A DNA stretch of 64,000 nucleotides, taken from NCBI RefSeq assembly GCF_023721415.1, contig NZ_JAMQVC010000002.1:62001-126000 (forward strand). Direction: 5' to 3'. Below, in pieces: positions 6,670 to 47,327 of this stretch. Numbering within the stretch: position 1 is the first letter of the stretch; every line of letters starts with the position of its first letter. This DNA is from Galbibacter mesophilus. GTDB taxonomy: Bacteria > Bacteroidota > Bacteroidia > Flavobacteriales > Flavobacteriaceae. Both the position numbers and the translations under genes were made by a program. The notes under the pieces are model-generated. The model searched no databases and was not told the origin of the DNA. It saw only the letters and a program-made list of their open reading frames with translations.

Positions 6670-7552
6670 GAAGCTTTTATGTGTCGTTTTTTTATGCGTA
6701 GCTCAATTTACATTGGCGCAAGAGCTTAACTGTACCGTGATTGTAAATTCGGAACAGGTAAATCAAACCAACCAGCAGATTTTCAAAACGCTGGAAAAAT
6801 CACTTAACGATTACGTTAACCAAACCAAATGGACTAATCGTAACTACAGTAGTGCGGAGCGTATTGAGTGCAGTATGATGATTACCGTTACGAATTACGA
6901 AAACACTACCTTCAATGCAACCATTCAGGTGCAATCTAACCGTCCAGTTTACAATTCTACCTACCAATCACCTGTATTTAATTATCAAGATAAGCAGTTT
7001 ACCTTTAATTATGTAGAGTTTGCTCCCATATATTTTAATCCGAATGTATTCGAATCAAATCTTACATCGGTTATCACATATTATGTTTACATAATGCTGG
7101 GAGTGGATGCCGATACTTTTACAAAAGAAGGAGGAACGCCTTATTTTAAGCAGGCACAAAATATTGTGAATCTAGCTCAAGGAAGCGGCTACAGTGGTTG
7201 GCAACAAGTTGATGGCAATAGAACTCGATGGGAATTGGTAGATAACCTTTTATCAAATACTTTTAAAGAGTACAGATTGGCACTTTATAATTACCATCGT
7301 TTGGGATTGGATAAGCTTGTGGACAATGCTACGTTGGCCAAGGAGTCCATTGCAGGTTCCATGAAATTGTTTGATCGATTGAACGACGTGCGTCCAAATT
7401 CCTTTGTGCTTCAAGCTTTCTTCGACGCTAAATCTGAGGAAATCGCCAATGTTTTTTCTGGAGGTCCAAAAGTCGATATTGTCAAATTGAAAGAAACCTT
7501 AAATCAGATTGCTCCTTTGTATGCAGATACTTGGTCTCGTATAAAATATTAG
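6662..7552 (+). CDS. DUF4835 family secreted protein
   Basis: The start is placed at ATG 6662, which gives the signal peptide MVRKLLCVVFLCVAQFTLAQ cleaved before ELNC. The upstream extension to 6623 lies inside coaBC. The mature protein begins with the family pattern ELNCTVIVNSEQVNQTN. The 296-residue length and the position after coaBC and before recN match the conserved flavobacterial DUF4835 family. The function is unknown; the signal peptide puts it in the periplasm or at the outer membrane. The ATG overlaps the coaBC stop, so it is part of the bamD-omega-coaBC operon. Confidence 0.85.
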   Translation: MVRKLLCVVFLCVAQFTLAQELNCTVIVNSEQVNQTNQQIFKTLEKSLNDYVNQTKWTNRNYSSAERIECSMMITVTNYENTTFNATIQVQSNRPVYNSTYQSPVFNYQDKQFTFNYVEFAPIYFNPNVFESNLTSVITYYVYIMLGVDADTFTKEGGTPYFKQAQNIVNLAQGSGYSGWQQVDGNRTRWELVDNLLSNTFKEYRLALYNYHRLGLDKLVDNATLAKESIAGSMKLFDRLNDVRPNSFVLQAFFDAKSEEIANVFSGGPKVDIVKLKETLNQIAPLYADTWSRIKY

Positions 7553-7777
7553 CCAAGTTACAAGTCGTAAATTATGAGTTGTTTGTTTTTAGGACGCATT
7601 AAGCAATACGCAGTAAGCTTTTTTTTGCTTCCCGCACCCAAAACCTAACACCCAACACCCATAAAACTAACATCCGTGCATCCGTGGCACTTTTCGGCAA
7701 TTCATTCATAAAAAATCCACAATATTTTATTTCTGTTTGAAGAACAATTATCTTTGGGAAACTAAATTCAAGAAACT

Positions 7778-9439
7778 TTGTTAGCAACGCTTACTATAAA
7801 AAATTACGCTTTAATAGATCATCTCCAAGTTCGTTTTTCTGAAGGTTTTACAACCATTACGGGTGAAACCGGAGCTGGTAAATCGATTCTTTTGGGCGGA
7901 CTCTCATTGGTGCTGGGGAAAAGGGCCGATTTGAGCAGTATTAAGAACAGCGAAGAAAAATGTGTGATTGAAGCAAGTTTTAAGATTGAAAACTATCAAT
8001 TGGAAGACTTTTTTAAAGAATCCGATCTTGATTTTGAAAAGCAAACTATCATTAGAAGGGAAATTTTACCCAGCGGAAAATCCCGAGCTTTTATAAACGA
8101 TACGCCCGTAACGTTAGATGTACTATCCCAACTAGGTGTTCAGCTTATAGATATCCATTCGCAGCACCAAACGTTGCAATTAACCGATAACGATTTTCAG
8201 TTTAAGGTGATAGATGCGGTGGCATCCAATGAAAAAGTATTGGAGAAATACACCCAAAAACTAACACAGTATCATCAAATTAAAAAAGAACTCAAAAAAC
8301 TGATTGATTTTCAGCAGGAGGCAGATAAGGAATACGATTATAATTCCTTTTTGTTGCAAGAGTTAGAAGCTGCCAATTTAAAAGAAGGAATGCTTGAGGA
8401 GCTGGAGGCGACCTACGAAAAATTGAACAACGTAGAGGAGATTTCAGAGAGCATCTCTCATGCACAACAAATTTTAGGAGAAGAGCAAATAGGGACGTTA
8501 AGCGGACTCAATGAATTGAAAACGATTTTCAATAAACTTTCGCATTTTGGAGTTTCTTATAAGGAGCTGTATTCAAGGGTGCAATCTGCTTTGATTGAAC
8601 TGGATGATATTCACGTGGAAATCCAACGCTTAGAGGAAGGTTTGGAAGCCGATCCTCAGCAATTGGAGGAGGTGAACAACAAGCTTCAGTTGATTTATAG
8701 CTTACAGAAAAAGCATCATGTTTTAGAGATATCAGAATTGCTGGCGGTACAAAAAGAACTGGCTGAAAAAGTTTCCAAAACAGAAAGTTTGGAAAGCGAT
8801 ATTAAAGAGCGGCAGTTGGAGCTTTTAAAACAAGAAGAAGAATTGGATGCCATTGCCAAAACTATTAGAACAAACAGGGAAAAGGCCATTCCTGCATTGA
8901 AAAAACATTTGGAAGCGGTATTAAAAGAGCTTGGAATGGGCAATGCACAGTTTAAAATTGATTTGGAAGCAACGAGTAAGTACTTTTCAAATGGAAAAGA
9001 TGAACTTCATTTCTTATTTTCAGCAAACAAAGGAGGAAGTTTTAATGAGCTGAGAAAAGTGGCTTCTGGAGGGGAACTTTCTAGAATAATGCTCGCTATA
9101 AAATCCCTTTTGGCGCAATACATGCACTTACCCACTATTATGTTTGACGAAATAGATACGGGGGTTTCCGGTGAAATTTCCAACAAAATGGGGGAGATTA
9201 TGCAACAAATGAGCAAAACCATGCAGGTATTTACCATAACCCATCTTCCACAGGTAGCCGCTAAAGGAGACGCCCAGTTCAAAGTGTTTAAAGAAGACAA
9301 CCAAGGAGTGACTGCTTCCCAGATGAAAGAATTGTCGGAGGAAGAACGAGTTAGGGAGATTGCAGAGATGCTTGGTGGAAAAGAAGTTTCTGATGCTGCT
9401 ACAGCGCATGCTAAGGAATTATTGCTGAAGAAAAATTAG
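7778..9439 (+). CDS. recN: DNA repair protein RecN
   Basis: RecN is an SMC-like ATPase acting early in double-strand break repair. The Walker A motif GETGAGKS is at residues 29-36, a long coiled-coil region follows (about residues 160-370), and the Walker B/D-loop segment IMFDEIDTGVSG and the ABC signature ASGGELSR lie near the C-terminus. The 553-residue length is normal. The start is a TTG at 7778; the residues after it (LATLTIKNYALIDHL) are the usual RecN beginning and no ATG fits better. A 225-bp gap without a gene separates it from the DUF4835 gene. Confidence 0.95.
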   Translation: MLATLTIKNYALIDHLQVRFSEGFTTITGETGAGKSILLGGLSLVLGKRADLSSIKNSEEKCVIEASFKIENYQLEDFFKESDLDFEKQTIIRREILPSGKSRAFINDTPVTLDVLSQLGVQLIDIHSQHQTLQLTDNDFQFKVIDAVASNEKVLEKYTQKLTQYHQIKKELKKLIDFQQEADKEYDYNSFLLQELEAANLKEGMLEELEATYEKLNNVEEISESISHAQQILGEEQIGTLSGLNELKTIFNKLSHFGVSYKELYSRVQSALIELDDIHVEIQRLEEGLEADPQQLEEVNNKLQLIYSLQKKHHVLEISELLAVQKELAEKVSKTESLESDIKERQLELLKQEEELDAIAKTIRTNREKAIPALKKHLEAVLKELGMGNAQFKIDLEATSKYFSNGKDELHFLFSANKGGSFNELRKVASGGELSRIMLAIKSLLAQYMHLPTIMFDEIDTGVSGEISNKMGEIMQQMSKTMQVFTITHLPQVAAKGDAQFKVFKEDNQGVTASQMKELSEEERVREIAEMLGGKEVSDAATAHAKELLLKKN

Positions 9440-9461
9440 TGCATGGCAAACGACAAAGTTG

Positions 9462-10265
9462 ATGAATGATATCCCTGTTAAAAACAAAATAAGCCATTAC
9501 GCAGACTTAAAAATAGCCCCGTTTGATCCTGCCAAACGAAAAACAAGGCCGCATAGACACCATAAATATTTTGAAATTGTTTATTTAAGCAAGGCAGAAG
9601 GATATCATTTCATAGACGATAAAGAATATAAAATCCATGCGCCTACCTTTTACTTCATAAAAAAAGATGCTGTTCATTATTGGGACATCAGTAACAATCC
9701 GGAAGGTTATGTAATAATTTTTAAAGAGGAATTTCTAGAAAACACATCCGACAAAACGCTTAATAGCTTGTTGTTTCAATTAATAAACCATCATGAAGAG
9801 CGATGCGAAAATCCGAATTTGGTAGAAACACTGTTTTCGCTATTGGTAACGGAATTCAATAAAAGTTTACATCCGAATAAGCATTATTTTGAAGGGCTGC
9901 TGAAAGCATTATTGGCACAGATTAATAAAAAATTGGAGCACAAAAATCTTTCTAAGTCAGAAGAGTTTTTAAAGTTATTGTCTGAGAGTCCTGTTAATAA
10001 TGTTGGATTTTATGCAGATAAACTCGGCGTGAGCAATCAAAAACTCAATCAGTTGTGCAAAGAAAATTTTTCTAAGACTACCACAGAAATCATTGCTTAT
10101 CATATAAATAAAGAAGCAAAACGACTTTTACGGTTTTCATCGAAATCTATTTCAGAAATTGCGTACACGCTTTATTTTAAGGATGATTCTCATTTTGTGC
10201 GCTATTTTAAGAAACATAACGGTATGACTCCGTTAAAATTCAGAAATACATCAAATAGACCATAA
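9462..10265 (+). CDS. AraC family transcriptional regulator
   Basis: The 267-residue protein has an N-terminal cupin-like sensor domain (HRHHKYFEIVYL and DAVHYWDI, typical histidine-rich beta-barrel strands) and a C-terminal AraC double helix-turn-helix ending SEIAYTLYFKDDSHFVRYFKKHNGMTP in parts, the classic second HTH. The ATG at 9462 is used; the TTG one codon earlier is also in frame. It lies 22 bp after recN. Two perfect 13-bp direct repeats at its 3' end, in front of the next gene (a TonB-dependent receptor), are likely its operator, so it probably controls that receptor. The inducer is unknown. Confidence 0.88.
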   Translation: MNDIPVKNKISHYADLKIAPFDPAKRKTRPHRHHKYFEIVYLSKAEGYHFIDDKEYKIHAPTFYFIKKDAVHYWDISNNPEGYVIIFKEEFLENTSDKTLNSLLFQLINHHEERCENPNLVETLFSLLVTEFNKSLHPNKHYFEGLLKALLAQINKKLEHKNLSKSEEFLKLLSESPVNNVGFYADKLGVSNQKLNQLCKENFSKTTTEIIAYHINKEAKRLLRFSSKSISEIAYTLYFKDDSHFVRYFKKHNGMTPLKFRNTSNRP

Positions 10266-36227: not shown

Positions 36228-36260
36228 AAAGGTCGTCTAAGTTTCTAGACGACCTTTTTT
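36228..36260 (+). terminator. Terminator after the beta-barrel gene
   Basis: The perfect 12-bp stem AAAGGTCGTCTA / TAGACGACCTTT has a short loop and six T residues. The 290 bp to the next gene hold only a promoter-like box. Confidence 0.9.
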
Positions 36261-36520
36261 AATCCTGCTTATTTATGTCATAAACCTCTGTACAGGGTTG
36301 CATAGGTGGTTTAAACCTCTAGTTCTTTTTAAGGATCTAACGTTCTGTATTGTTTATTTGCATAAATGACTCTTAAAATATTGATTTTCATTACGTTAAA
36401 ATTTTTACAAAAGCAAATTTCTGCTTCAAATGAACTATGATTTTTCCCAATAGAGTTAATAATTATTCAATTTTGTTATTTTCCCAACTGATTCTGATAA
36501 CTTAGTGATATAATTTGTTC

Positions 36521-36528
36521 TATTTTTG
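36521..36528 (+). promoter_or_regulatory. Candidate -7 box (TATTTTTG) of the AraC-BLUF gene
   Basis: This is an exact TAnnTTTG match, 23 bp before the ATG at 36552. No convincing -33 element is present. Confidence 0.4.
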
Positions 36529-36551: not shown

Positions 36552-38027
36552 ATGTCTGAATTAGATTCGAGAATATTATTTGAAGAATTGGAGGCTTTTT
36601 TTGAACAAAAAGGAAGCACTACTGCAGATGGTGGAGTGTTAAAAATTGATAGTGAAAAAGGAGTAGGAGAAGTTTCTTGCGTGCAATTATTTAAGGGATT
36701 GGAATTACTCTTGTTTGATGTTGCCTTGCAACAGCCCTTAGAATTTAGCTATAAAACGGAGAGTGATGCATTTATCCATTTTCTATCGATACAAGAGGGA
36801 ATGATGCAACATAGTTTTGGTCCTGATGAGGAAATGCAAACCGCGTTTCGTTTTCAAAATGTAATTTTAGGAAGTACAAAAAAGGCTACATCTTATTTCT
36901 ATCTTCCTAAAAACACCAAGCTTAAATTTGGTTTAATCACTTTGTTCAAAACCAATTTTGAACCTTCCCATAATTTTAGAGGTCAACTTCCAGTTTTGTT
37001 GAATAACATTTTTAAAGGCTTTGCCGGTAAACATAGATACACCTATTTTGGAGATATTTCGGACAGGGATTCGGCCTATTTAAGTAAAATTTTTAAACTA
37101 TCTAATCATCGATTAGAAGATAGACTAAATGTTGAAGCTGCTGTGTATCATTTGTTGGCCTCCAAGTTAAAGGATCACGATCAGGATCAATCTAAAGAAG
37201 CGAGAAAAGACGAATTAACCCAAACGGAAATTTCAAGTCTGTTAAAACTGAGTGAATATATAAGCAGAAATTTAGATAAAACCTTAAAAATTAAAGAGCT
37301 TGAACGGGAGAGTGGATTAAATCAGAAAAGAATTCAGTACGGTTTTCAACAATTTTTTGGGTTCAGTGTAAATAAATACATAGTGAATTTAAGAATTTTA
37401 AAGGCTAAAGAGCTTTTGGAAAACACCGATTTAAGTATATCTGAAATAGTTTTTAAAATTGGGTTGAGCAGTCGTAGCTACTTTTCTAGAATTTTCTCTG
37501 AGAAATACGGTATCCTTCCCAAAGAATACAAATCAAATTTGCATTTGTCTAATCCAACTTTTGAGCTTTGCTATTATTCCACAGCAAGCAAAAACCTGAA
37601 GCATGATGATTTTAGAGATATTTTACATGAAGCAAATAAGTTTAATGAAAAACATTCCATAACGGGCTGCCTTATTTATCATGAAGGTTATTTTATGCAG
37701 TTGCTGGAAGGAAACAAAGACCATGTCGAGTCTATATATCAACAGATTAAATTAGACAAAAGACACTCAAACCTTAAGATTATGTTTACAGGTTTTAAGT
37801 CTGGACGTATATTCGACGAGTGGAGTATGGCTTTTATCGAGGAACCTTCTGTATTTAGTATGAATAATCTAAAAGACTTTAAATTACTAAGCGTCGATAT
37901 GCTTCGAATGCTCGATAAGACATCAAAAAGTAAACAAGATAATATTTTACAAACCAAATTGATGTGGGAAAGTGCTAGAAATACACTTATTTTAGAAGCT
38001 GAAAATCATACTCAAATTGCAATTTAA
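36552..38027 (+). CDS. AraC-type regulator fused to a BLUF blue-light sensor
   Basis: This 491-residue protein has three parts. Residues 1-215 resemble an AraC-type N-terminal sensor domain. Residues 222-330 are an AraC DNA-binding domain (IKELERESGLNQKRI in HTH 1, ISEIVFKIGLSSRSYFSRIF in HTH 2). Residues 337-432 are a BLUF flavin domain. All residues known to matter for BLUF photochemistry are present: Y341, N365, Q383, W424 and M426. Their spacing (24, 18, 41 and 2) is the same as Y21, N45, Q63, W104 and M106 of AppA. A tail of about 60 residues follows. The likely role is a transcription factor whose activity responds to blue light through FAD. No flavin or photolyase genes are nearby. The next gene on this strand, 766 bp away, encodes a TraG-like relic. 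Confidence 0.9.
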   Translation: MSELDSRILFEELEAFFEQKGSTTADGGVLKIDSEKGVGEVSCVQLFKGLELLLFDVALQQPLEFSYKTESDAFIHFLSIQEGMMQHSFGPDEEMQTAFRFQNVILGSTKKATSYFYLPKNTKLKFGLITLFKTNFEPSHNFRGQLPVLLNNIFKGFAGKHRYTYFGDISDRDSAYLSKIFKLSNHRLEDRLNVEAAVYHLLASKLKDHDQDQSKEARKDELTQTEISSLLKLSEYISRNLDKTLKIKELERESGLNQKRIQYGFQQFFGFSVNKYIVNLRILKAKELLENTDLSISEIVFKIGLSSRSYFSRIFSEKYGILPKEYKSNLHLSNPTFELCYYSTASKNLKHDDFRDILHEANKFNEKHSITGCLIYHEGYFMQLLEGNKDHVESIYQQIKLDKRHSNLKIMFTGFKSGRIFDEWSMAFIEEPSVFSMNNLKDFKLLSVDMLRMLDKTSKSKQDNILQTKLMWESARNTLILEAENHTQIAI

Positions 38028-38599
38028 ATTTTCCTGAGCATTTTATAATCCCGATACAGTGCTTATTTTTCTTAATTAAGGTATTGAAAGACGATTTTCA
38101 ATTATAGTTTTGTGGTTATTGTATTTAACATCTTAGCCCAATAAAAAGATAGTTCTTTAAATAATTCAATTGTGTATTACCTATAATTTTAGAGAATGAC
38201 TAACCAACTTACATTTTCTGTTGTAGTATTACCTATTATTTAAGAGCTATCTTTTTCATGAAATCTACATTGTTTTCCCTCACAAACGTTTACTGAAGTT
38301 CTTTAAAAGAAATTGCTTTGCTTTAGGAGTTTCTGTTTTAATTATCAGATTTATAATATTTTAGATATTACTTTTTGAAATAATCTTCCCTGTGTCCATT
38401 TTATCTTATGTTTAATTTCGATTGTTGCAAGGATATCTTCAAATGTGATAATCTTGGTTCTACAAGTTGGTTACTTTTACTAAAAATTGCTATGCAAAGA
38501 AAAAATGAAGCATTTAAAAGAAGTTTTCAAAAGTTAAAATAACCTTTTAAGGTAGTTAGCCTTGCACAATGCTAAACTGTGCTTTTAAAGGAATTTTTT
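38028..38599. other. Long untranslated gap, left part
   Basis: This stretch after the AraC-BLUF gene is A+T-rich. No frame with a plausible start exceeds about 20 codons and no strong hairpin follows the stop codon. A loose inverted pair AAAAAGATAG / CTATCTTTTT (near 38142 and 38242) could form a large stem. Its length suggests regulatory DNA or an RNA gene rather than a missed protein. Confidence 0.4.
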
Positions 38600-38793: not shown

Positions 38794-40182
38794 ATGATAG
38801 CTGCTTTTTTATCGATTAAAGAATTCGCAAGTTTCCAAACGGAAGCCGTGGAAAAAATTCGATTGGCTACTGAATCTGGTGGAATTTACGTGAGTAACGT
38901 AAAGAAGGGTACTGCCATTATTGGTGCTTCGGAAGAAAATACTAAAGACCATTTTGCTTTTAATTACTTTCAGCATTTCAGTAAATATGAATATAGCGGA
39001 ATGTTCTATGACCACGACAATTTTAAGCTTACAAGCTTGGTGTATCCTTTGCTCGATGCTTATAAAAGAGACTTAAAAATTATTTCTTTTGATATTATTT
39101 ACCATCGTGTCAATCCAATAGCGCCTAAATATTTACCACTGAAGAGAGATATTAGGCAATTTGCAAACTTGTTTATTAAGAACATAATCTTTAGTCAAAC
39201 CCATACCAGTTTAAAAAGTACTAAAATACGATGGAAGTCAGCCGAAAGCTTACTTACTGGAATTATATATTATTTAAAAAAGCACCATCCCGAGAGTTGC
39301 ACCATACCACATGTTATAAGTATTATCAATGAATATACCTTAGTGGAAATCACTAAACTATTGAATGCGGATGATGAAGTGGTTAATTTGTCTTCGGAAT
39401 TTTTGCAGTTGGCAAATAACGAACCGACAGAGCTCAAAACACTTATAGATTTTTTAAAAGATTATTTTCATCAAGTAAGCACCGAAAGGATTTTTATGGC
39501 CTTATCTAAGGATGAAATAAATTTAAAAATTTTCTCCAATGCGGATAAGCATGTGATATCGGTTGTCAATAATCCCTTAAAGGAAACCGTTTATTCTCCT
39601 CTACTTTCGTTAGTGTTGAATACATCTATGAAAGATAGAAAAGAGTTTAAGAAGAATTCTTTTCTTTATTACAAGGAGTCGCAATGCTTTTATGTTTATC
39701 GCTTGCACAGATTGTTTTCAAAGTTGAGAAGAAACAATGTATCCATTGTATATGAATTGGATGAAAAGTTTCAAAACGACTTATTTTATGGTAACAGAGT
39801 CAGCGACAATATTTTAAGCAGATTGTCCTATAAATTCATAGGCAAAGGCGTAAGTCAAATTTCGGCTAGATATAGTCAAAAAATGATTCAGCGTGTTAAA
39901 GATAAAGCGAATAGGATAGTGAAAAACGAACGCTTCGGGATGCAAAAATTGATTCTCCGCTACAGCAGTAATTTATCCCGAATTCTATCCAATAAGTTTA
40001 CAAAGCTAAAATTTGGAGAATTCATCGGCCGACTCGATGATAAAGATATTATTACCAAGTTTGATACAAAAGAACAACAACGCATTAAACCTTTACCAGA
40101 AAGGGTCTACACATCTAAAGAACTCAGCGAGAACTATGAGAAAATTTTAAAGGATGTAGCCTTGATAAAGAAAGAAATATAA
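38794..40182 (+). CDS. Orphan TraG/VirD4-like protein with degenerate ATPase motifs
   Basis: The 462-residue protein follows the order of segments of Bacteroidota conjugative coupling proteins (TraG/MobC type): a GTAIIGASEENTKD segment where the P-loop GTPGSGKS belongs (residues 39-52), YDHDNFKLTSLVY for the YDxKxPDL strand, RVNPIAPKYL for the CNPI-P-YL motif, LTGIIYYLKKHH and TIPHVISIINE, and in the C-terminal part YGNRVSDNILSRLSYKFIGK and SARYSQKM for the YG-A-I-N-GN and TA-S-G motifs. The Walker A lysine/serine are gone, and the Walker B region reads LYYKESQ instead of LDE-PT. The N-terminal membrane part and much of the ATPase core are missing. ATP hydrolysis is therefore unlikely. No relaxase, integrase or other transfer gene is nearby. 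It may be a decayed relic or a domesticated protein. The homology call is from motif order and needs a profile search. Confidence 0.6.
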   Translation: MIAAFLSIKEFASFQTEAVEKIRLATESGGIYVSNVKKGTAIIGASEENTKDHFAFNYFQHFSKYEYSGMFYDHDNFKLTSLVYPLLDAYKRDLKIISFDIIYHRVNPIAPKYLPLKRDIRQFANLFIKNIIFSQTHTSLKSTKIRWKSAESLLTGIIYYLKKHHPESCTIPHVISIINEYTLVEITKLLNADDEVVNLSSEFLQLANNEPTELKTLIDFLKDYFHQVSTERIFMALSKDEINLKIFSNADKHVISVVNNPLKETVYSPLLSLVLNTSMKDRKEFKKNSFLYYKESQCFYVYRLHRLFSKLRRNNVSIVYELDEKFQNDLFYGNRVSDNILSRLSYKFIGKGVSQISARYSQKMIQRVKDKANRIVKNERFGMQKLILRYSSNLSRILSNKFTKLKFGEFIGRLDDKDIITKFDTKEQQRIKPLPERVYTSKELSENYEKILKDVALIKKEI

Positions 40183-40298: not shown

Positions 40299-43200
40299 TT
40301 ATTTCTTCACAATCTTCGTTTGAGCCACCATTTTACCTTTTTTATCTACCAATCGTAGCAAATAAACACCTGCCGGAAAACGACTCATATCAATCCTTCC
40401 TTGGTTAGACGCTTCTACCTTGAAAGAGCTGACCAATATTCCACTTAGATTGTATAAGTATCCTTCGCTAAGTACGGCCTTGCCAACCAGTTGATAACTA
40501 GCTTCACTTCGCACCGGATTCGGATAAATATTGATAGTGAACTTTTCAGGTGAATCCGCGTTTGGTAAATCAGCAATAGATTGCGCGCTGCTACTTGTCA
40601 CTTCAAAAATAACCGATAGTGGAATTCCAGCTTTCCCTTTTCCGTTTTTCTGATCGTAAGGTGTAGCGGTAACATAATTGGTTCCTAGCGGAAATTCAAC
40701 CGCATTAAGGTCCGTACCATTATTTTTATCACCTTTCAAAGCGTACGGAATTACGTTTTCCTTCTGAAAATTGGTTTTTCCGTTAAAATCGAAAACAACA
40801 CTTTGAGTTCCAATGGCTGTAGCATTCGCAACAATACTAAATGCATTCGCATCATAATCATCTAAGTTTATAACGGTCCCATTTTCTAAAGTTCCAATTT
40901 CTTCATCCGTTTCGGCATTGAAGAGTGTGAAACTAGAAACCATCAATGGTGATTGCGTTACTTCAAAAGAAACTGTTAACGGAATACCCATCATGCCGCT
41001 ACCATTTTTCCCCGAGTAGGGAGTCGCGGTGATGGTGTTATCACCCAAAGGAAACGCCACAGGGATGAATTCTGTTCCATTTTTCTTATCGCCATCCAGT
41101 GCGTATGGAGCGATATTTTCTTTCTGGAAATTCTCTTTTTCATTAAAATCGAAAATCACGCTACCTACAGGCAAATCGCCAATATTGGCAACCACGCTAA
41201 ACGCATTTGCGGTATAATCATCCAAATTGATAACATCTCCCTCTTCAAGTGAACCAATTTCTTCATTGGTGTCGGCATTAATAAGCGTAAAGCTTACCAC
41301 TTCAGGAGCGTCAAGTACATCCAATGTAACTGGAATGTTGATTTCTGAACGGATAGGATCGTTACTACTTACCACAATATCACCGGTAAAGGAAGTATTG
41401 GCTTCAAGTCCTTCCGCGGAAAAAGTTATAGGCACTTCGGCTGTTTCTCCAGGCTCCACCGTTCCAGAAATAGGAGGTGTAAAAGTAATCGCCAATCCGT
41501 CTGTTAAGAATTCTGTATTGAAAATCACTTGAAGGCCTGATAATCCTCCAGGGCCTTCCAGACCAACCGTGCTGCTTGTACGAATGGTGGAATTCACATT
41601 TTCGTATTGCATTTTTATACTTCCATCAGGAAATAAAATTACTTGAAAAGTTACCGGATCTGGTACGGGTAAGAAAGGCGGAAAGCCAAACCCTGGAACT
41701 GCTTCGTACTGAACGATAAAATATTCCGAAGTCCCCATGTAGAAGACACCCGTTCCGTTTTGTGGCTCCAAATCGTCCCAAAGTCCTGCAATAAGCATAT
41801 TCGGATTGGCAGGATCTGGAATTTGAGTATTGATAAAGTTACTTCCAGTTATTTCAGCAAATGTTAAAAATCCGTTTGCTCCAATCGTCACACTATCTTG
41901 CTCTTCTCCGAAGAACTTAAATGGAAAAGGAAGTGCAACCGTTTCTTCATCATCAGCGCCAACATTCGCTACTTCACCACTTTCACTTATATCCATAAAA
42001 TCATATGCCGGTCCGCCACTATTATTGTCTACCCAAGTGTATCCAAATGTTCCCGGACCGCCACTGGCATTGAGTGGGGAAGGACCAACTCTGGTATCCA
42101 ACGCTTCTTTGCTTCTAATTTTTGCATACTCCAGTTTTTCATAGGTCGCCACTTTTTGATTGGCTTCACCTGCCTTACCGAAAAAGGGTGGTGATAAGGC
42201 ATAATTAAGTGTTGAATTACCGGTATTGCTAATTGTAACGGTTTCTGTGATTTCTTGCTCACGAACCACTTCTAGGTTCAAAGAATCTGGAGTCACTTCA
42301 ATTACAGGAGGATCAACCCCTTCTCCAAAAAGATACACTATGGCGGTTTCCATTCCAAAAGCATCATTGCTTTCAATAATTATTTTGTCCTCTATAAATC
42401 CGACCGAACTTGGTTTAAAGGTAACCCCAATTTGTAGGGTTTCGTCGGGAGCTAAGGTTATTGGTGCAATGGTATCTAAAATAAAATCACTGGTTTCATT
42501 GCTTATCGATGTAATTTCTAAATCTTTGGAACCGGTATTTTCCAGCAAGAAATTAGCTTCAGATTCCAAACCAACAAAAATTGGGTCGTATTGTAAAGTA
42601 TCTGGAGTTACAGAAATTTCAGGAAAACCAATCACCGTTAATTCAAAAAGAGCGGAGTTTAACGAATCGCTTGGAGCGTTACTGGACACCATGAGCTCGT
42701 CAAAGTACACGCCGTCGTTCAATTCAGTAGCATCTAAAGTAACCGATAATTGTTTAGAGCCTCCGGCTGGAACAACTCCCGAAAGCGGACTCACATTACT
42801 GATTAAATCTGTAAAGAAGATGGATGGTTTTACAAAGCGAATTGCCAAATCATCTTTTATATATTCGGTATTAAAAGCAACTTGAGCACCATCAGTACCA
42901 TCAAAGTTTTCTATACCTACTGTGGCAGTATTTCTAAACGGAGCGGTTTCTACATCCTCGTAATAAAAATCGATATTTCCATCAGGGAATAAAACAATTT
43001 GGAAGGTAACTGTTTCATCTACTTCACCAAAGAATATTGGTGCTTGCGTCCATTGAACCACAAATTTACTTCCATCATCAAAATAATGAACCGATCCATT
43101 GTCGTTTTGCGGTTCCAAATCGTTCCAGAACGCAGCTATCACAGCGTTTATGCCATCTTCGGTTGGAATTTGTGTATTTACGTATGTCAATCCGCTGGGA

Positions 43201-46200
43201 TCTTCAAACGTTACGAATCCATTCGCATTAATAATTACCGAAGCATTGGTTTGTCCATAGAATTCAAAAGGAAAAGAAATGGCAACTTCAGTAGAACCAT
43301 CCCCACCAAGATCGGTAGTTATTTCTGTTCCTACTGCTGTAATGTCTTCAAAATTAAAAACAGGTCCGCCGGGCTCATCACTATCTATCCAAGTATAACC
43401 AAAGCCATTGTCCGTTCCAACACTGTAATCAACACTAGCACCTTGCCGGTTGTCTTTAAAACCTTTTTCCTGTTGCAGGCTAAAACTTTCAAAATTTATC
43501 CGTTTGGTGTCATTCAATTTCACATTAGGATCGGCTAGAGCAGCCGCCACGGCGAGATCTGGAAAGGAAAAAATTAATGGTGCCTTTCCATCATTTTTAA
43601 GTGTGATTTCTGTATCAATGGTAGTTCCCGCATCGGTGGTAAGCATAACTTCCTGAGGGTCTAAAACCGCGATTGGCGGTTCTACACCCACGCCATTCAC
43701 AACCACTTCCAGTGTTTGGGTGTTATCGGCGTCACTTTCAATGGTAATAATTCCATTTATATTTCCTGCTTCGGAAGGTGTAAAAAGCACTTTCACTTCT
43801 AAACTATCGGAAGCTGCAATGGTTGCGGAAGTTGGATCAACCGAGAAATCGGCGTTATCCGAAGCAATATTAGAAACATTCAATTCTGCGAGTCCGTTAT
43901 TTATTATGGTAAACGAACGTTCCCTTTCTGCGCCAATAAAGACATCATTGAACAATATGAATTCCTCTGAAAGGGCAATTTCTGAAACTTGTCCGGCAAC
44001 TTCAAAAGTCGTAGCTACGGAGGCTTCAGGTGTAACGGGATCATTACTTGCTACCAAAATATCACGATTGTATGTACCGTTGGCCAAATTTTCGCCGTTA
44101 AATGTAACCGTAACATCTACCGATTGTCCCGGAGAGATGGTTCCTTCCGAAGGTTCAAGCGTAATGTAACTTTCTTCGGAAGCTCCGCTAAGCGCCCTAA
44201 CAAAAAATACAAACCCCGACGGATTGTAAGTGGCGCCGCCATCTCCGCTGAAAAAATAAGTATTAGGCCTTTGGGTGGCATCGTTATCTACCCCTTGCGG
44301 AAATTCAATACCATCAGGGTATTTGTGTACTACCCAAAAAGACTCGCCAGCCGTAAACGTAAGTGACTCGCTGAGTTCTTCTGCAACTAGAATACCTTCT
44401 TCGCTGGTTTGGTTGAATGTTTGGGTAAGCAGTAATTCGCCATCGTTGGGAGTATCACCGCCACGATAGATTTCCAAAATAACTGGAGCGTCGGTAACCG
44501 TTTCTGTACGGTACCCATTTCGTACCGCTGTAAGGGTAAACTCGTTTTCAGCGTCAAATTTTACAGCACTTGTATAAGCGCTTGTTTGTACGCCAGCAAA
44601 ATTATCAGGAAACGGAATGCCGCTATCATAAAAAATGGAATCTTGAAAAGTAGCATTGTCTAGAATTTGAACAGAAGGCACACTACTTTTTTCAATTACT
44701 CCTCTTGACTTCTCTTTAAACGGACCTGCATTTCCTTCGCCATACCTTGCTAAATCCAGATTGCTTAAAAGTAAATCTGTTGGAGCGGAAGGGCTATCAA
44801 ACTGAAGCGGCCCAAGCGATGTTGTAAAATCCAAATCGCTTTCTCCTGAGTTGGAAATACTAAAAGTTTCCGTTTTTACAGGAGGCATATCTGTTTGTAC
44901 ATTCACCGAAGCGCTCAATGAGTCTGGATTTACACCAATGGTTGGTGGTTGCAAAACGGTTAGTGAAACCGGAATATCCACCGGAGAGTTTACAGAATCG
45001 TTGCTATTTACAGTGAGAGAGGCTTCGTAATTTCCTGGGTCAATCGCTCGGGCATCAAATTTAACTTGAACCGTTTGGGAAGATCCTGGTGGAACTACGC
45101 CTGCATTGGGAGCCACCGATACAAAGAATGCATTAGGATCGCCATCAGTAATTTCCAAGTTGTCTACATCAAAGGTAGATCCTGTTTCTTCCATTGCTGA
45201 AAGAAATACCGCCTGTTCGATTATAGGGGCAAAACCCTGTCCTGAAAACACCAATTCGTCATCAAAATAAATGGAAAAAGTAGCATCATCTTTATCAACG
45301 ATTATTCTCAATTCGAAATAGCCGGAAGGGATGGATGCTTCAATTTGAACAAAATTGGGATCTGTTAGTACATCAATAGTTCCATCGGCATTAAAGCGTA
45401 ATCTAGTCACCACGGAGCCAGCAGTTGGCGATTGCGGAATTACTTCCCAAGTAGTGCCGCTTCCTTGAATATTTATTTGTGCACTTAACACCATAAAAGG
45501 TTCGTCTGCTGGAGAAATGCTGGGCGAAAGCGCTAAAATACTTCCAGGTCGCGTGCCTCCAAGTCCGTCTGAAACACCTCTAAAATGCTGGTTTCCTTCA
45601 AAAGAGTTTTCAGTAGAAATAATCCAGTTATCGGCGTATTGAGAAGCCCAGCCCAATTGTCCGTTGAGGTTACCAGGGGTGAATTCCTCAAAATCGGTAG
45701 CGTAAAGGGAAGTTATTACTTCCGTAAAGTCATTATTTTGAGTTTTTACCAAGGATGCTATTCCGGATGTTTTAGCCGAAAGATTGGTAAATTGCTTTTT
45801 ACTTTTACCCGCTTTGGTGACAGCTTTGTTACTGAGAGCCACTTTTTCAGCGAATTCCATCGGCGGTTCATCATTTACGGTAATATTAAAATTAAGATCG
45901 GCATCACCGGTATTTTCAATAACTAAGTCACGGGAGACAATTTGTAGCTGCTGAATGGTTTCTTCAAAAGAATTAGGCGTGACTACCAAAAACGGAGTTT
46001 CCGTGCCGTCCAGTACCCTTACTTCAACAGGAACGGCTATGGCCTCAACCAATTCCGGCGCAGTAATGAAAAGCGTGTCGTTGTATACTCCTTTCAATAA
46101 TCCAGCGGTATTTAATTTAATTTCCAGTGAATCTGAGCTTGCAGAAGGAATGGTAAGTTGTTGCGGTTGGATAAGTTCAATGGTCGTATTTCCAGCATTA

Positions 46201-47327
46201 GCTGCAGCTGTTGCCGTAATGGAAACATCTGCAATATTGGAAATAGTAATCGTTCTTCTTATGGTGTCGCCAACAAAAAGCTCCTCATCTATAGAGTTTG
46301 GAGAGACCAATAGAGGTGGAGCTTCTGCATCGTTTATAACCCATCCCATATCTTTAAAAAGTCCGCGCGTAATATCTCCAATATCAAAATTGGATTCTGC
46401 GGTTCCCACTTGTGGAGTCATTAAGGAATTTACATCACCTGCTGGGAAAGCCGCTTCATCCCAATGTGCTAGGCTGGAGCCTCCCTGCCAATTAGACGGC
46501 GCATACAGTTCTGGTCGCATACCGGCCAAAGCGGCAACGGCAAACGTGCCTCCCATGAAAATATCACCACCTGTAAAGGCATCGCCTAGTTCAGTGGAAG
46601 GATCTGGAAAGTCCAATAACGAAGTTCCATCGCCATCTTCAATAAAAACGCCAAAAATAGACGGTAAACCGTTAGACCGAAGTGTTCCAACTCCGTTGTT
46701 GAATCCGCGAACGGTGGTAAAACCAAGTCCGTGTCCTGCTTCATGTAGTGCAACCGTAACAAAATCGAACAATCCAGAAGGCGTGTTTCCATCGGTGCCG
46801 AAATACCACGGAATACCATTTCCAAGGTTTACGATTAAATCGAAGTTTTCATCAGGAAAAAGGGTTTCACCAGCAATGGCATTTGCCAATGCTGCTGGAT
46901 ATAAAACGTCGGGATCGGGAGCTCCTGGAACTCCACTAACGTTGTACGCCGGACCGGCAGAAGCAAGTACTCCTGGGCCGAGATCGGCAAAATCTGCAAA
47001 AATTTTAATAGGGACGGGGGAGACAATTTGAGTAGCCCAAATATCGAGGGCAAATTGAAAGGCTGCTTGTGCTTCTGGGTTGGCTTGTGCGCCAGGACCG
47101 TATGTTACTTGAATTTCGGCTGTAGCCACATTTTGCATACGCTGTTGAAGCCCTTTACTTCGCTCGGGAGGAATATTGACCCGAGTGTTCATGTCTTGAA
47201 ATTTAGCAGGACAAATTACTGGGGTTGCCGGTAATTTTTTTGGCTGCTGAGCGAATACATCCAACTGGCAGAAAAAGGAGAGGAGGAAGGCCAGTGCAAG
47301 ATGTATGGGAAAGTAATTTTTTCTCAT
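40299..47327 (-). CDS. Giant T9SS-secreted multidomain protein with metalloprotease-like head
   Basis: This 2342-residue protein has a signal peptide ending near FAQQ (residue 27). Residues about 60-335 resemble the bacterial HExxH family with HEAGHGLGF (H195, E196, H199), LAHWDEAAFPAGD and SLMTPQVG. The position of the third metzincin histidine is a threonine. The middle is a chain of immunoglobulin-like modules of the choice-of-anchor D type (ISVTPDTLQYDPIFVG, ITSISNETSDF), a laminin-G-like segment (about 545-770) and two nidogen-like domains that share FGYTW.D and an N-TE(Y/F)--D-LAI-F ending. Two ~114-residue tandem units (about 2010-2123 and 2129-2243) precede the T9SS type A sorting domain (about 2263-2342; INIYPNP, GVYLLRLVDKKGKM). 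It is secreted through the outer membrane and probably attached to the surface. It stands alone in its transcription unit. Confidence 0.88.
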   Translation of the reverse strand: MRKNYFPIHLALAFLLSFFCQLDVFAQQPKKLPATPVICPAKFQDMNTRVNIPPERSKGLQQRMQNVATAEIQVTYGPGAQANPEAQAAFQFALDIWATQIVSPVPIKIFADFADLGPGVLASAGPAYNVSGVPGAPDPDVLYPAALANAIAGETLFPDENFDLIVNLGNGIPWYFGTDGNTPSGLFDFVTVALHEAGHGLGFTTVRGFNNGVGTLRSNGLPSIFGVFIEDGDGTSLLDFPDPSTELGDAFTGGDIFMGGTFAVAALAGMRPELYAPSNWQGGSSLAHWDEAAFPAGDVNSLMTPQVGTAESNFDIGDITRGLFKDMGWVINDAEAPPLLVSPNSIDEELFVGDTIRRTITISNIADVSITATAAANAGNTTIELIQPQQLTIPSASSDSLEIKLNTAGLLKGVYNDTLFITAPELVEAIAVPVEVRVLDGTETPFLVVTPNSFEETIQQLQIVSRDLVIENTGDADLNFNITVNDEPPMEFAEKVALSNKAVTKAGKSKKQFTNLSAKTSGIASLVKTQNNDFTEVITSLYATDFEEFTPGNLNGQLGWASQYADNWIISTENSFEGNQHFRGVSDGLGGTRPGSILALSPSISPADEPFMVLSAQINIQGSGTTWEVIPQSPTAGSVVTRLRFNADGTIDVLTDPNFVQIEASIPSGYFELRIIVDKDDATFSIYFDDELVFSGQGFAPIIEQAVFLSAMEETGSTFDVDNLEITDGDPNAFFVSVAPNAGVVPPGSSQTVQVKFDARAIDPGNYEASLTVNSNDSVNSPVDIPVSLTVLQPPTIGVNPDSLSASVNVQTDMPPVKTETFSISNSGESDLDFTTSLGPLQFDSPSAPTDLLLSNLDLARYGEGNAGPFKEKSRGVIEKSSVPSVQILDNATFQDSIFYDSGIPFPDNFAGVQTSAYTSAVKFDAENEFTLTAVRNGYRTETVTDAPVILEIYRGGDTPNDGELLLTQTFNQTSEEGILVAEELSESLTFTAGESFWVVHKYPDGIEFPQGVDNDATQRPNTYFFSGDGGATYNPSGFVFFVRALSGASEESYITLEPSEGTISPGQSVDVTVTFNGENLANGTYNRDILVASNDPVTPEASVATTFEVAGQVSEIALSEEFILFNDVFIGAERERSFTIINNGLAELNVSNIASDNADFSVDPTSATIAASDSLEVKVLFTPSEAGNINGIITIESDADNTQTLEVVVNGVGVEPPIAVLDPQEVMLTTDAGTTIDTEITLKNDGKAPLIFSFPDLAVAAALADPNVKLNDTKRINFESFSLQQEKGFKDNRQGASVDYSVGTDNGFGYTWIDSDEPGGPVFNFEDITAVGTEITTDLGGDGSTEVAISFPFEFYGQTNASVIINANGFVTFEDPSGLTYVNTQIPTEDGINAVIAAFWNDLEPQNDNGSVHYFDDGSKFVVQWTQAPIFFGEVDETVTFQIVLFPDGNIDFYYEDVETAPFRNTATVGIENFDGTDGAQVAFNTEYIKDDLAIRFVKPSIFFTDLISNVSPLSGVVPAGGSKQLSVTLDATELNDGVYFDELMVSSNAPSDSLNSALFELTVIGFPEISVTPDTLQYDPIFVGLESEANFLLENTGSKDLEITSISNETSDFILDTIAPITLAPDETLQIGVTFKPSSVGFIEDKIIIESNDAFGMETAIVYLFGEGVDPPVIEVTPDSLNLEVVREQEITETVTISNTGNSTLNYALSPPFFGKAGEANQKVATYEKLEYAKIRSKEALDTRVGPSPLNASGGPGTFGYTWVDNNSGGPAYDFMDISESGEVANVGADDEETVALPFPFKFFGEEQDSVTIGANGFLTFAEITGSNFINTQIPDPANPNMLIAGLWDDLEPQNGTGVFYMGTSEYFIVQYEAVPGFGFPPFLPVPDPVTFQVILFPDGSIKMQYENVNSTIRTSSTVGLEGPGGLSGLQVIFNTEFLTDGLAITFTPPISGTVEPGETAEVPITFSAEGLEANTSFTGDIVVSSNDPIRSEINIPVTLDVLDAPEVVSFTLINADTNEEIGSLEEGDVINLDDYTANAFSVVANIGDLPVGSVIFDFNEKENFQKENIAPYALDGDKKNGTEFIPVAFPLGDNTITATPYSGKNGSGMMGIPLTVSFEVTQSPLMVSSFTLFNAETDEEIGTLENGTVINLDDYDANAFSIVANATAIGTQSVVFDFNGKTNFQKENVIPYALKGDKNNGTDLNAVEFPLGTNYVTATPYDQKNGKGKAGIPLSVIFEVTSSSAQSIADLPNADSPEKFTINIYPNPVRSEASYQLVGKAVLSEGYLYNLSGILVSSFKVEASNQGRIDMSRFPAGVYLLRLVDKKGKMVAQTKIVKK

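Follow-up and report, generated by a model that had tools for sequence, protein, structure and literature searches.

The window, that is, the whole stretch of 64,000 nucleotides of Galbibacter mesophilus DNA that was analysed, carries a gene whose product, judged from profile matches and a predicted model, is a complete AraC regulator to whose C-terminus an entire PixD-like BLUF protein is joined. We call the regulator complete because the N-terminal third of the protein corresponds, in its predicted fold, to a cupin-type AraC regulatory domain. The fusion probably acts as a light- and ligand-responsive AraC regulator on tandem 21-bp sites, those of its own promoter included. The domains, predicted folds, conserved residues, the clade of fused BLUF domains, the fixed linker and the tandem promoter repeats on which we draw were all computed here. 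With a whole BLUF on an AraC regulator, and with promoter repeats that it may bind, the protein qualifies as a promising candidate for a light-controlled gene switch of natural origin.

Domain architecture of the fusion protein

The gene and the parts of its product were delimited as follows.

36552..38027, + strand: AraC-BLUF fusion gene, 491 aa (open reading frame, Pfam matches, fused relatives)
36552..37217, + strand: N-terminal regulatory domain, residues 1-222, with a cupin-like beta-barrel (~22-132) and helices (146-214) in the predicted fold
37221..37547, + strand: AraC double-HTH DNA-binding domain, residues 224-332
37530..37571, + strand: HTH-to-BLUF linker, residues 327-340, 14 residues long in 15/15 fusions
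37563..37832, + strand: BLUF core, residues 338-427, with Y341, N365, Q383, W424 and M426
37860..38021, + strand: C-terminal helices, residues 437-490, with W472 and R476, counterpart of the C-terminal region in BLUF proteins that stand alone

As the preliminary description had it, the gene is a single open frame of 491 codons, starting with ATG on the + strand. The AraC DNA-binding domain that it placed before the BLUF was confirmed by Pfam matches over the cut-offs to HTH_18 (62.9 bits, E 3.6e-17, residues 252-327) and HTH_AraC (32.7 bits, residues 290-326), and the BLUF profile search proposed with it matched PF04940 at 97 bits, against a curated cut-off of 25 (E 7.1e-28, residues 338-427, profile positions 3-92 of 92). 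Searched by sequence against the PDB, the BLUF part retrieved BlsA, Tll0078/PixD, AppA and BLUF cyclases, and the HTH part RamA, AraC, the xylose operon regulator and MarA. Residues 13-104 of the AppA chain 2bun_A aligned with residues 337-428 of the fusion over equal lengths, and the claim that Y341, N365, Q383, W424 and M426 have the AppA spacing proved correct (24, 18, 41 and 2). Of the features of the BLUF family, the profile, the BLUF fold and the flavin-pocket Tyr/Asn/Gln and Trp/Met were thus found, and of those of the AraC/XylS family, the double HTH and, in the predicted fold, an N-terminal cupin regulatory domain.

Such a cupin domain is usual, though not universal, in AraC/XylS regulators. 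By sequence, the best PDB chain for the N-terminal domain of the fusion reached just E 0.13. In the predicted model, residues ~333-483, corresponding to the BLUF core and the C-terminal helices, aligned with the PixD and BlsA structures; the orientation of the domains is uncertain in this model (pTM 0.57), and the linker stretch 331-333 has a pLDDT below 50. The preliminary description had proposed a one-component light-responsive regulator. This proposal was supported in part: the AraC and BLUF domains and the five residues agree with it, the N-terminal cupin domain had been overlooked, and the light response is a prediction.

The fusion was the sole BLUF found in its own genome. A rhodopsin search of that genome gave no match, and 14/14 control genomes were silent in the same search too, so that the non-phototrophic habit named in the preliminary description is a supposition.

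Distribution, conservation and origin of the fusions

A search for further AraC-BLUF fusions, also proposed beforehand, was successful. With a profile (A1) built from nine fusions, which would not detect BLUF joined to AraC proteins of an unrelated family, we found full-length fusions in 11/397 genomes of the family draw (8/237 genera, 14 genes) and in 1/150 genomes of another family. The phylum draw contained three genomes with a fusion out of 395, and the class draw the same three out of 395. The architecture is therefore not unique to the window, since a congener has a 63% identical fusion and others occur in further genomes. That the gene could be an artefact of gene calling or assembly, or a chimera, is refuted by the presence of the same architecture, without internal stops, in 14 other genes of 11 other genomes, and we give this explanation practically no weight. 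The AraC-BLUF fusion is rare yet recurrent. BLUF domains of any kind were commoner than the fusion (at least 154/397 genomes of the family draw), and in the genus of the window they occurred in two of seven genomes, both times as fusions. Unfused relatives consisting of the N-terminal domain and the HTH (~340 aa) were common. In the plasmid search, 80% of the query was not found at one place in any record.

The residues Tyr, Ser343, Gln, Glu386, Gly387 and Arg404 were conserved in 15/15 fusions and Asn in 14/15, and the copy in the window has all five photocycle residues. Trp424 was kept in 11 of the 15 fusions and replaced in four, and Met426 was kept in eight, the remaining seven having Leu. 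Stand-alone BLUFs retained both Trp and Met in 47/47 cases. Since W424 and M426 are replaced in some fusions, part of the family may signal differently or no longer signal at all. Locus L067 (G198) carries a tandem pair of AraC-BLUF genes (7002-8450 and 8649-10100). In the second of these, G198b, the conserved Asn and the Trp are both missing, and this copy may be altered.

This drift of the W/M positions bears on another interpretation, according to which the BLUF binds flavin but serves to dimerise, or reports mainly a cue other than light (temperature, flavin level or redox state), while the cupin ligand drives the regulator. The retained cupin domain and the abundance of unfused relatives would fit such a role, as would the report that photoregulation of iron metabolism by BlsA, a short BLUF, is lost at 30 C (PMC5955987, as far as its accessible text goes). 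Tyr and Gln are nevertheless invariant, Asn is nearly so, the copy in the window keeps the whole set of five, and the tail of the fusion fits the PixD and BlsA structures in the predicted model. We consider this interpretation rather improbable and prefer a regulator that responds to light as well as to a ligand.

Phylogenetic analyses were performed separately on the two halves. The BLUF tree was computed from 62 domains, the BLUF-profile matches of the sampled loci after exclusion of sequences >240 aa, duplicates and fragments in L083, L124, L149 and L150. The 15 fused domains formed one clade in this tree (99/98), with one change of state. The tree of the AraC halves also contained 62 sequences, the unfused ones being matches >145 bits covering the profile (L119 was excluded). 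The fused halves and four unfused ones grouped in one clade (support 100/99). Three changes of state are needed in this tree, which therefore does not show one fusion event for the AraC half; one gain followed by losses, or more than one event, would both be possible from it. The same subgroups were recovered in both trees: the window gene with G005, G237 and G498; G216 with G390 and G233; G439 with G280; and the G198 pair. Taken together, these topologies suggest that the fusions probably trace to one old fusion event. The joint between HTH and BLUF measured 14 residues in each of the 15 fusions, with a variable linker sequence.

In the comparison of the window gene with G005, amino-acid identity was 50% in the N-terminal domain, 84% in the HTH and 63% in the BLUF core, and synonymous changes were saturated or nearly so. 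The BLUF core is constrained, as indicated by a pN of 0.22 against a saturated pS of 0.94, and this constraint is weaker than that on the HTH.

We also considered whether AraC and BLUF genes were neighbours before fusing (the Rosetta-stone pattern), which was unsupported as a general pattern. One close neighbour case was G050, with AraC and BLUF 14 bp apart on the same strand; its BLUF did not group with the fused ones (AU p 0.031, a marginal value on a long branch). Among 30 stand-alone BLUF loci with 1.5-kb flanks, the AraC-half profile matched in two, one of these matches being HTH-only. Outside those 30 loci, G024 has a different AraC-type gene directly after its BLUF.

Tandem repeats in the promoter regions

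The following elements were located upstream of the fusion gene.

36228..36257, no strand assigned: perfect inverted repeat of 12 bp with T's behind it, probably terminating the preceding gene
36467..36480, + strand: predicted half-site 1 of the operator, 85 bp upstream of the ATG (rank 1/127,932 with the held-out motif; score 13.5 with the all-trained motif)
36488..36501, + strand: predicted operator half-site 2, weaker, 21 bp on (score 5.9, all-trained motif)
36509..36522, + strand: possible third half-site, weak, 21 bp further (score 5.2, all-trained motif)

Because of the likely terminator, the fusion gene is probably its own transcription unit. The 130 bp upstream of the 15 fusions repeat themselves at 21 bp, this offset being the best of 36. 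The mean best 13-bp self-match at offset 21 had 3.73 mismatches versus 5.51 in controls (AT-matched intergenic upstreams of the same loci, with a pool of only 10 for one member), and 0/5000 resamples were as good. A 21-bp tandem motif found de novo in 13 upstreams, those of the window gene and G005 being left out, scored 215.5 versus a null mean of 147.8 (sd 8.3) and a null maximum of 171.7 among 297 control sets. When each group contributed a single upstream (nine in all, that of the window included), the score was 175.5, and none of 647 sets exceeded 144.5. In separate motif runs compared with shuffled sequences, the subgroups gave nothing significant (26 and 7 of 60 shuffles as good for group A, 59 and 5 of 60 for group B); with all upstreams pooled, 0 and 1 of 20 were as good.

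The motif from the 13 upstreams outside the genus of the window ranked the promoter of the window gene 1st of 127,932 positions, both strands counted. Because this held-out motif places the gene's own promoter first, the tandem sites suggest autoregulation by an AraC-type dimer, the fusion itself being the presumed binding protein. In leave-group-out scoring, a fusion's own upstream topped its locus in 6/15 cases (window, G005, G234, G237, G379 and G233) and five further fusions ranked 7 to 109; no operator was found upstream of G439, G280, G198a and G198b, with ranks of 194 to 307 in their own loci. The Bacteroidota promoter pattern occurred three times in the window versus 4.7 expected, and not upstream of the fusion gene.

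The repeats could instead belong to the AraC subfamily in general, or to another regulator, and have nothing to do with light control by the fusion. Trained on all 15 fusions, the motif reached a score of at least 12 in 3/47 unfused relatives, the best being G004 from the genus of the window, and an unfused paralogue in the same genome has a site of score 17.3 located 166 bp upstream of its start, so that the subfamily may have this site in common. In the unfused relatives, too, offset 21 nominally had the fewest mismatches, though weakly. At the same threshold, however, the motif was present in 11/15 fusions (in-sample) and in 0/153 control upstreams. We judge this explanation unlikely, less so than the one based on redox or temperature, and retain the view that the fusion would act on the repeats of its own promoter.

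The motif was not enriched in the promoters of stand-alone BLUFs (3/107 versus 11/436 controls, Fisher p 0.54). The two best of these promoters, in G124 (L040) and G332 (L146) of one genus, carry it 97-100 bp upstream with scores of 22.0 and 17.3. Five of the 11 motif-bearing controls are genes transcribed divergently from unfused AraC relatives, and their sites may be genuine. In five genomes of genus g151 (L100, L101, L093, L095 and L098), the motif (13.4-15.9) precedes a gene of ~161-165 aa that diverges from the unfused AraC relative and is a candidate target.

Proposed light signalling, known systems and neighbouring genes

In the mechanism that we favour, we infer flavin binding, a photocycle, a dimer, binding of the repeats by the fusion, ligand sensing by the cupin domain and the sign of the response. 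Three modules would be at work, a cupin ligand/dimerisation domain, the AraC double HTH and a PixD-like BLUF on the fixed 14-residue linker. The dimer would occupy tandem half-sites 21 bp apart, corresponding to two helical turns, at its own promoter and at other promoters. Blue light on the BLUF flavin would rearrange the Tyr341-Gln383 hydrogen bonds, and beta-5, Met426/Trp424, the C-terminal helices and the short linker would relay the change, which would reach either the DNA-binding domain or the interface of the dimer. DNA binding or activation would then be altered, and light and the cupin ligand would jointly control one operator. The half-site spacing resembles that of araI1-I2 in E. 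coli.

BLUF photochemistry is well studied, and BLUF-driven transcription is known mostly via separate partner proteins. With sensor, DNA-binding domain and predicted operator in one short gene, signalling from BLUF to DNA becomes testable with one protein and one short DNA. The cupin-type regulators AraC, BgaR, CuxR, ToxT and Rns combine a cupin-like domain and a double HTH, as the fusion does in its predicted fold; in them the DNA-binding domain comes last, whereas in the fusion a photosensor stands behind it. BlsA and PixD (Slr1694, Tll0078) have a BLUF core and C-terminal helices like those of the fusion but stand alone, while the BLUF of the fusion is covalently joined.

Several relatives in kind are in print, and we rely here on the accessible parts of the papers cited. 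The BLUF+AcrR (TetR-type) protein of Curtobacterium luteum (WP_058726129.1, 335 aa; PMC8508746 Table 4, after Kaushik et al. 2019) is likewise a natural BLUF joined to a DNA-binding regulator, of another HTH family and size. That table lists a selection of eight BLUF partners, AraC not being among them. YcgF (BLUF-EAL) and the BLUF cyclases (PAC) use BLUF as the input of a fused protein (PMC8508746) and differ from the fusion in their output domains; a PAC-like protein, in which a nucleotide cyclase domain comes after a flavobacterial BLUF, is present in a relative (G297, L070 7254-8282). In BLADE, an AraC DNA-binding domain was engineered with the LOV module VVD (PMC9614035). Both BLADE and the fusion put light input on an AraC DNA-binding domain, but BLADE is man-made and its LOV replaces the N-terminal domain, whereas the fusion is natural, keeps the cupin and has its BLUF at the C-terminus. 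Given the BLUF-AcrR fusion, the reported contact of BlsA with AraC-like regulators and LOV-AraC engineering, this kind of protein is already known. A natural AraC-BLUF protein was not described in the BLUF literature searched, most subscription papers lying outside the search, so that a description may exist elsewhere; nor is one named in the accessible text of PMC8508746, PMC9614035, PMC9020721, PMC4603819 and PMC5955987. New here are the 21-bp-phased tandem repeats upstream of many fusion genes and, as far as that search goes, the natural AraC-BLUF with the sensor behind the DNA-binding domain. The fusion could serve as a natural template for light-controlled AraC tools, hitherto engineered with LOV (PMC9614035, accessible part).

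A more far-reaching picture is quite possible, and we put it forward tentatively. The fusion would be a natural two-input switch for light and a chemical signal, with the BLUF behind the DNA-binding domain on an invariant linker and self-tuning via two or three 21-bp-phased half-sites, hence a native single-chain light-controlled AraC activator. After one founding fusion it would have been kept, duplicated and partly re-tuned (Trp/Met to other residues) in scattered Bacteroidota.

Light could also act in trans, the BLUF recruiting or releasing another protein as short BLUFs do and the AraC part just bringing it to DNA. BlsA of Acinetobacter is said to act by contact on Fur, BfmR, OmpR and AraC-like regulators (PMC8508746, accessible part) and reportedly binds Fur in the dark and far less under blue light (PMC5955987, accessible part). 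Sensor-kinase genes lie near G216a, G216b, G390b and G390a (the last by similarity), and receiver genes near G233 and G280. No neighbour gene was, however, common to all fusion loci, the window fusion has no kinase or receiver gene directly adjacent, and the fixed 14-residue linker suggests direct coupling of BLUF to AraC. We consider action in trans improbable, more so than the other roles discussed above, and favour signalling within the single chain.

Other neighbours were partly common or particular to single loci, and we list the stress, repair and signalling genes among them simply as observations. An unfused AraC relative lies near G237, G216b, G390b and G498. The G216b locus has a photolyase, the G216a locus DUF2383, and the G390b locus a catalase, DUF892 and a second BLUF. 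In G280 (L134 8877-12067), the AraC-BLUF gene follows umuC- and umuD-like genes of the same orientation at a distance of 102 bp. Ku and LigD lie nearby, and a link between blue light and DNA repair is possible at this locus.

The gene downstream of the fusion in the window (38794-40182) encodes a 462-aa protein with no Pfam match; its counterpart in G005, the next same-strand gene after the fusion there, is 64% identical. By eye, the protein is a possible TraG/VirD4-type coupling protein. It was ruled out as a specific partner of the fusion because longer relatives occur in 7/7 genomes of the genus (its own included), among them five without BLUF. Between the two genes, a 128-nt hairpin (38135-38262, -31 kcal/mol, z -6.1) has a similar counterpart at the same place in G005 (-32.3 kcal/mol), with partly different letters in the arms. 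Rfam gave no match at the gathering threshold in 33-42 kb of the window, and the hairpin may be a long terminator or an unknown RNA. Further on, 40299-47327 encodes a 2342-aa protein with HYDIN/ASPM-type Ig repeats, a nidogen-like stretch and a Por secretion tail.
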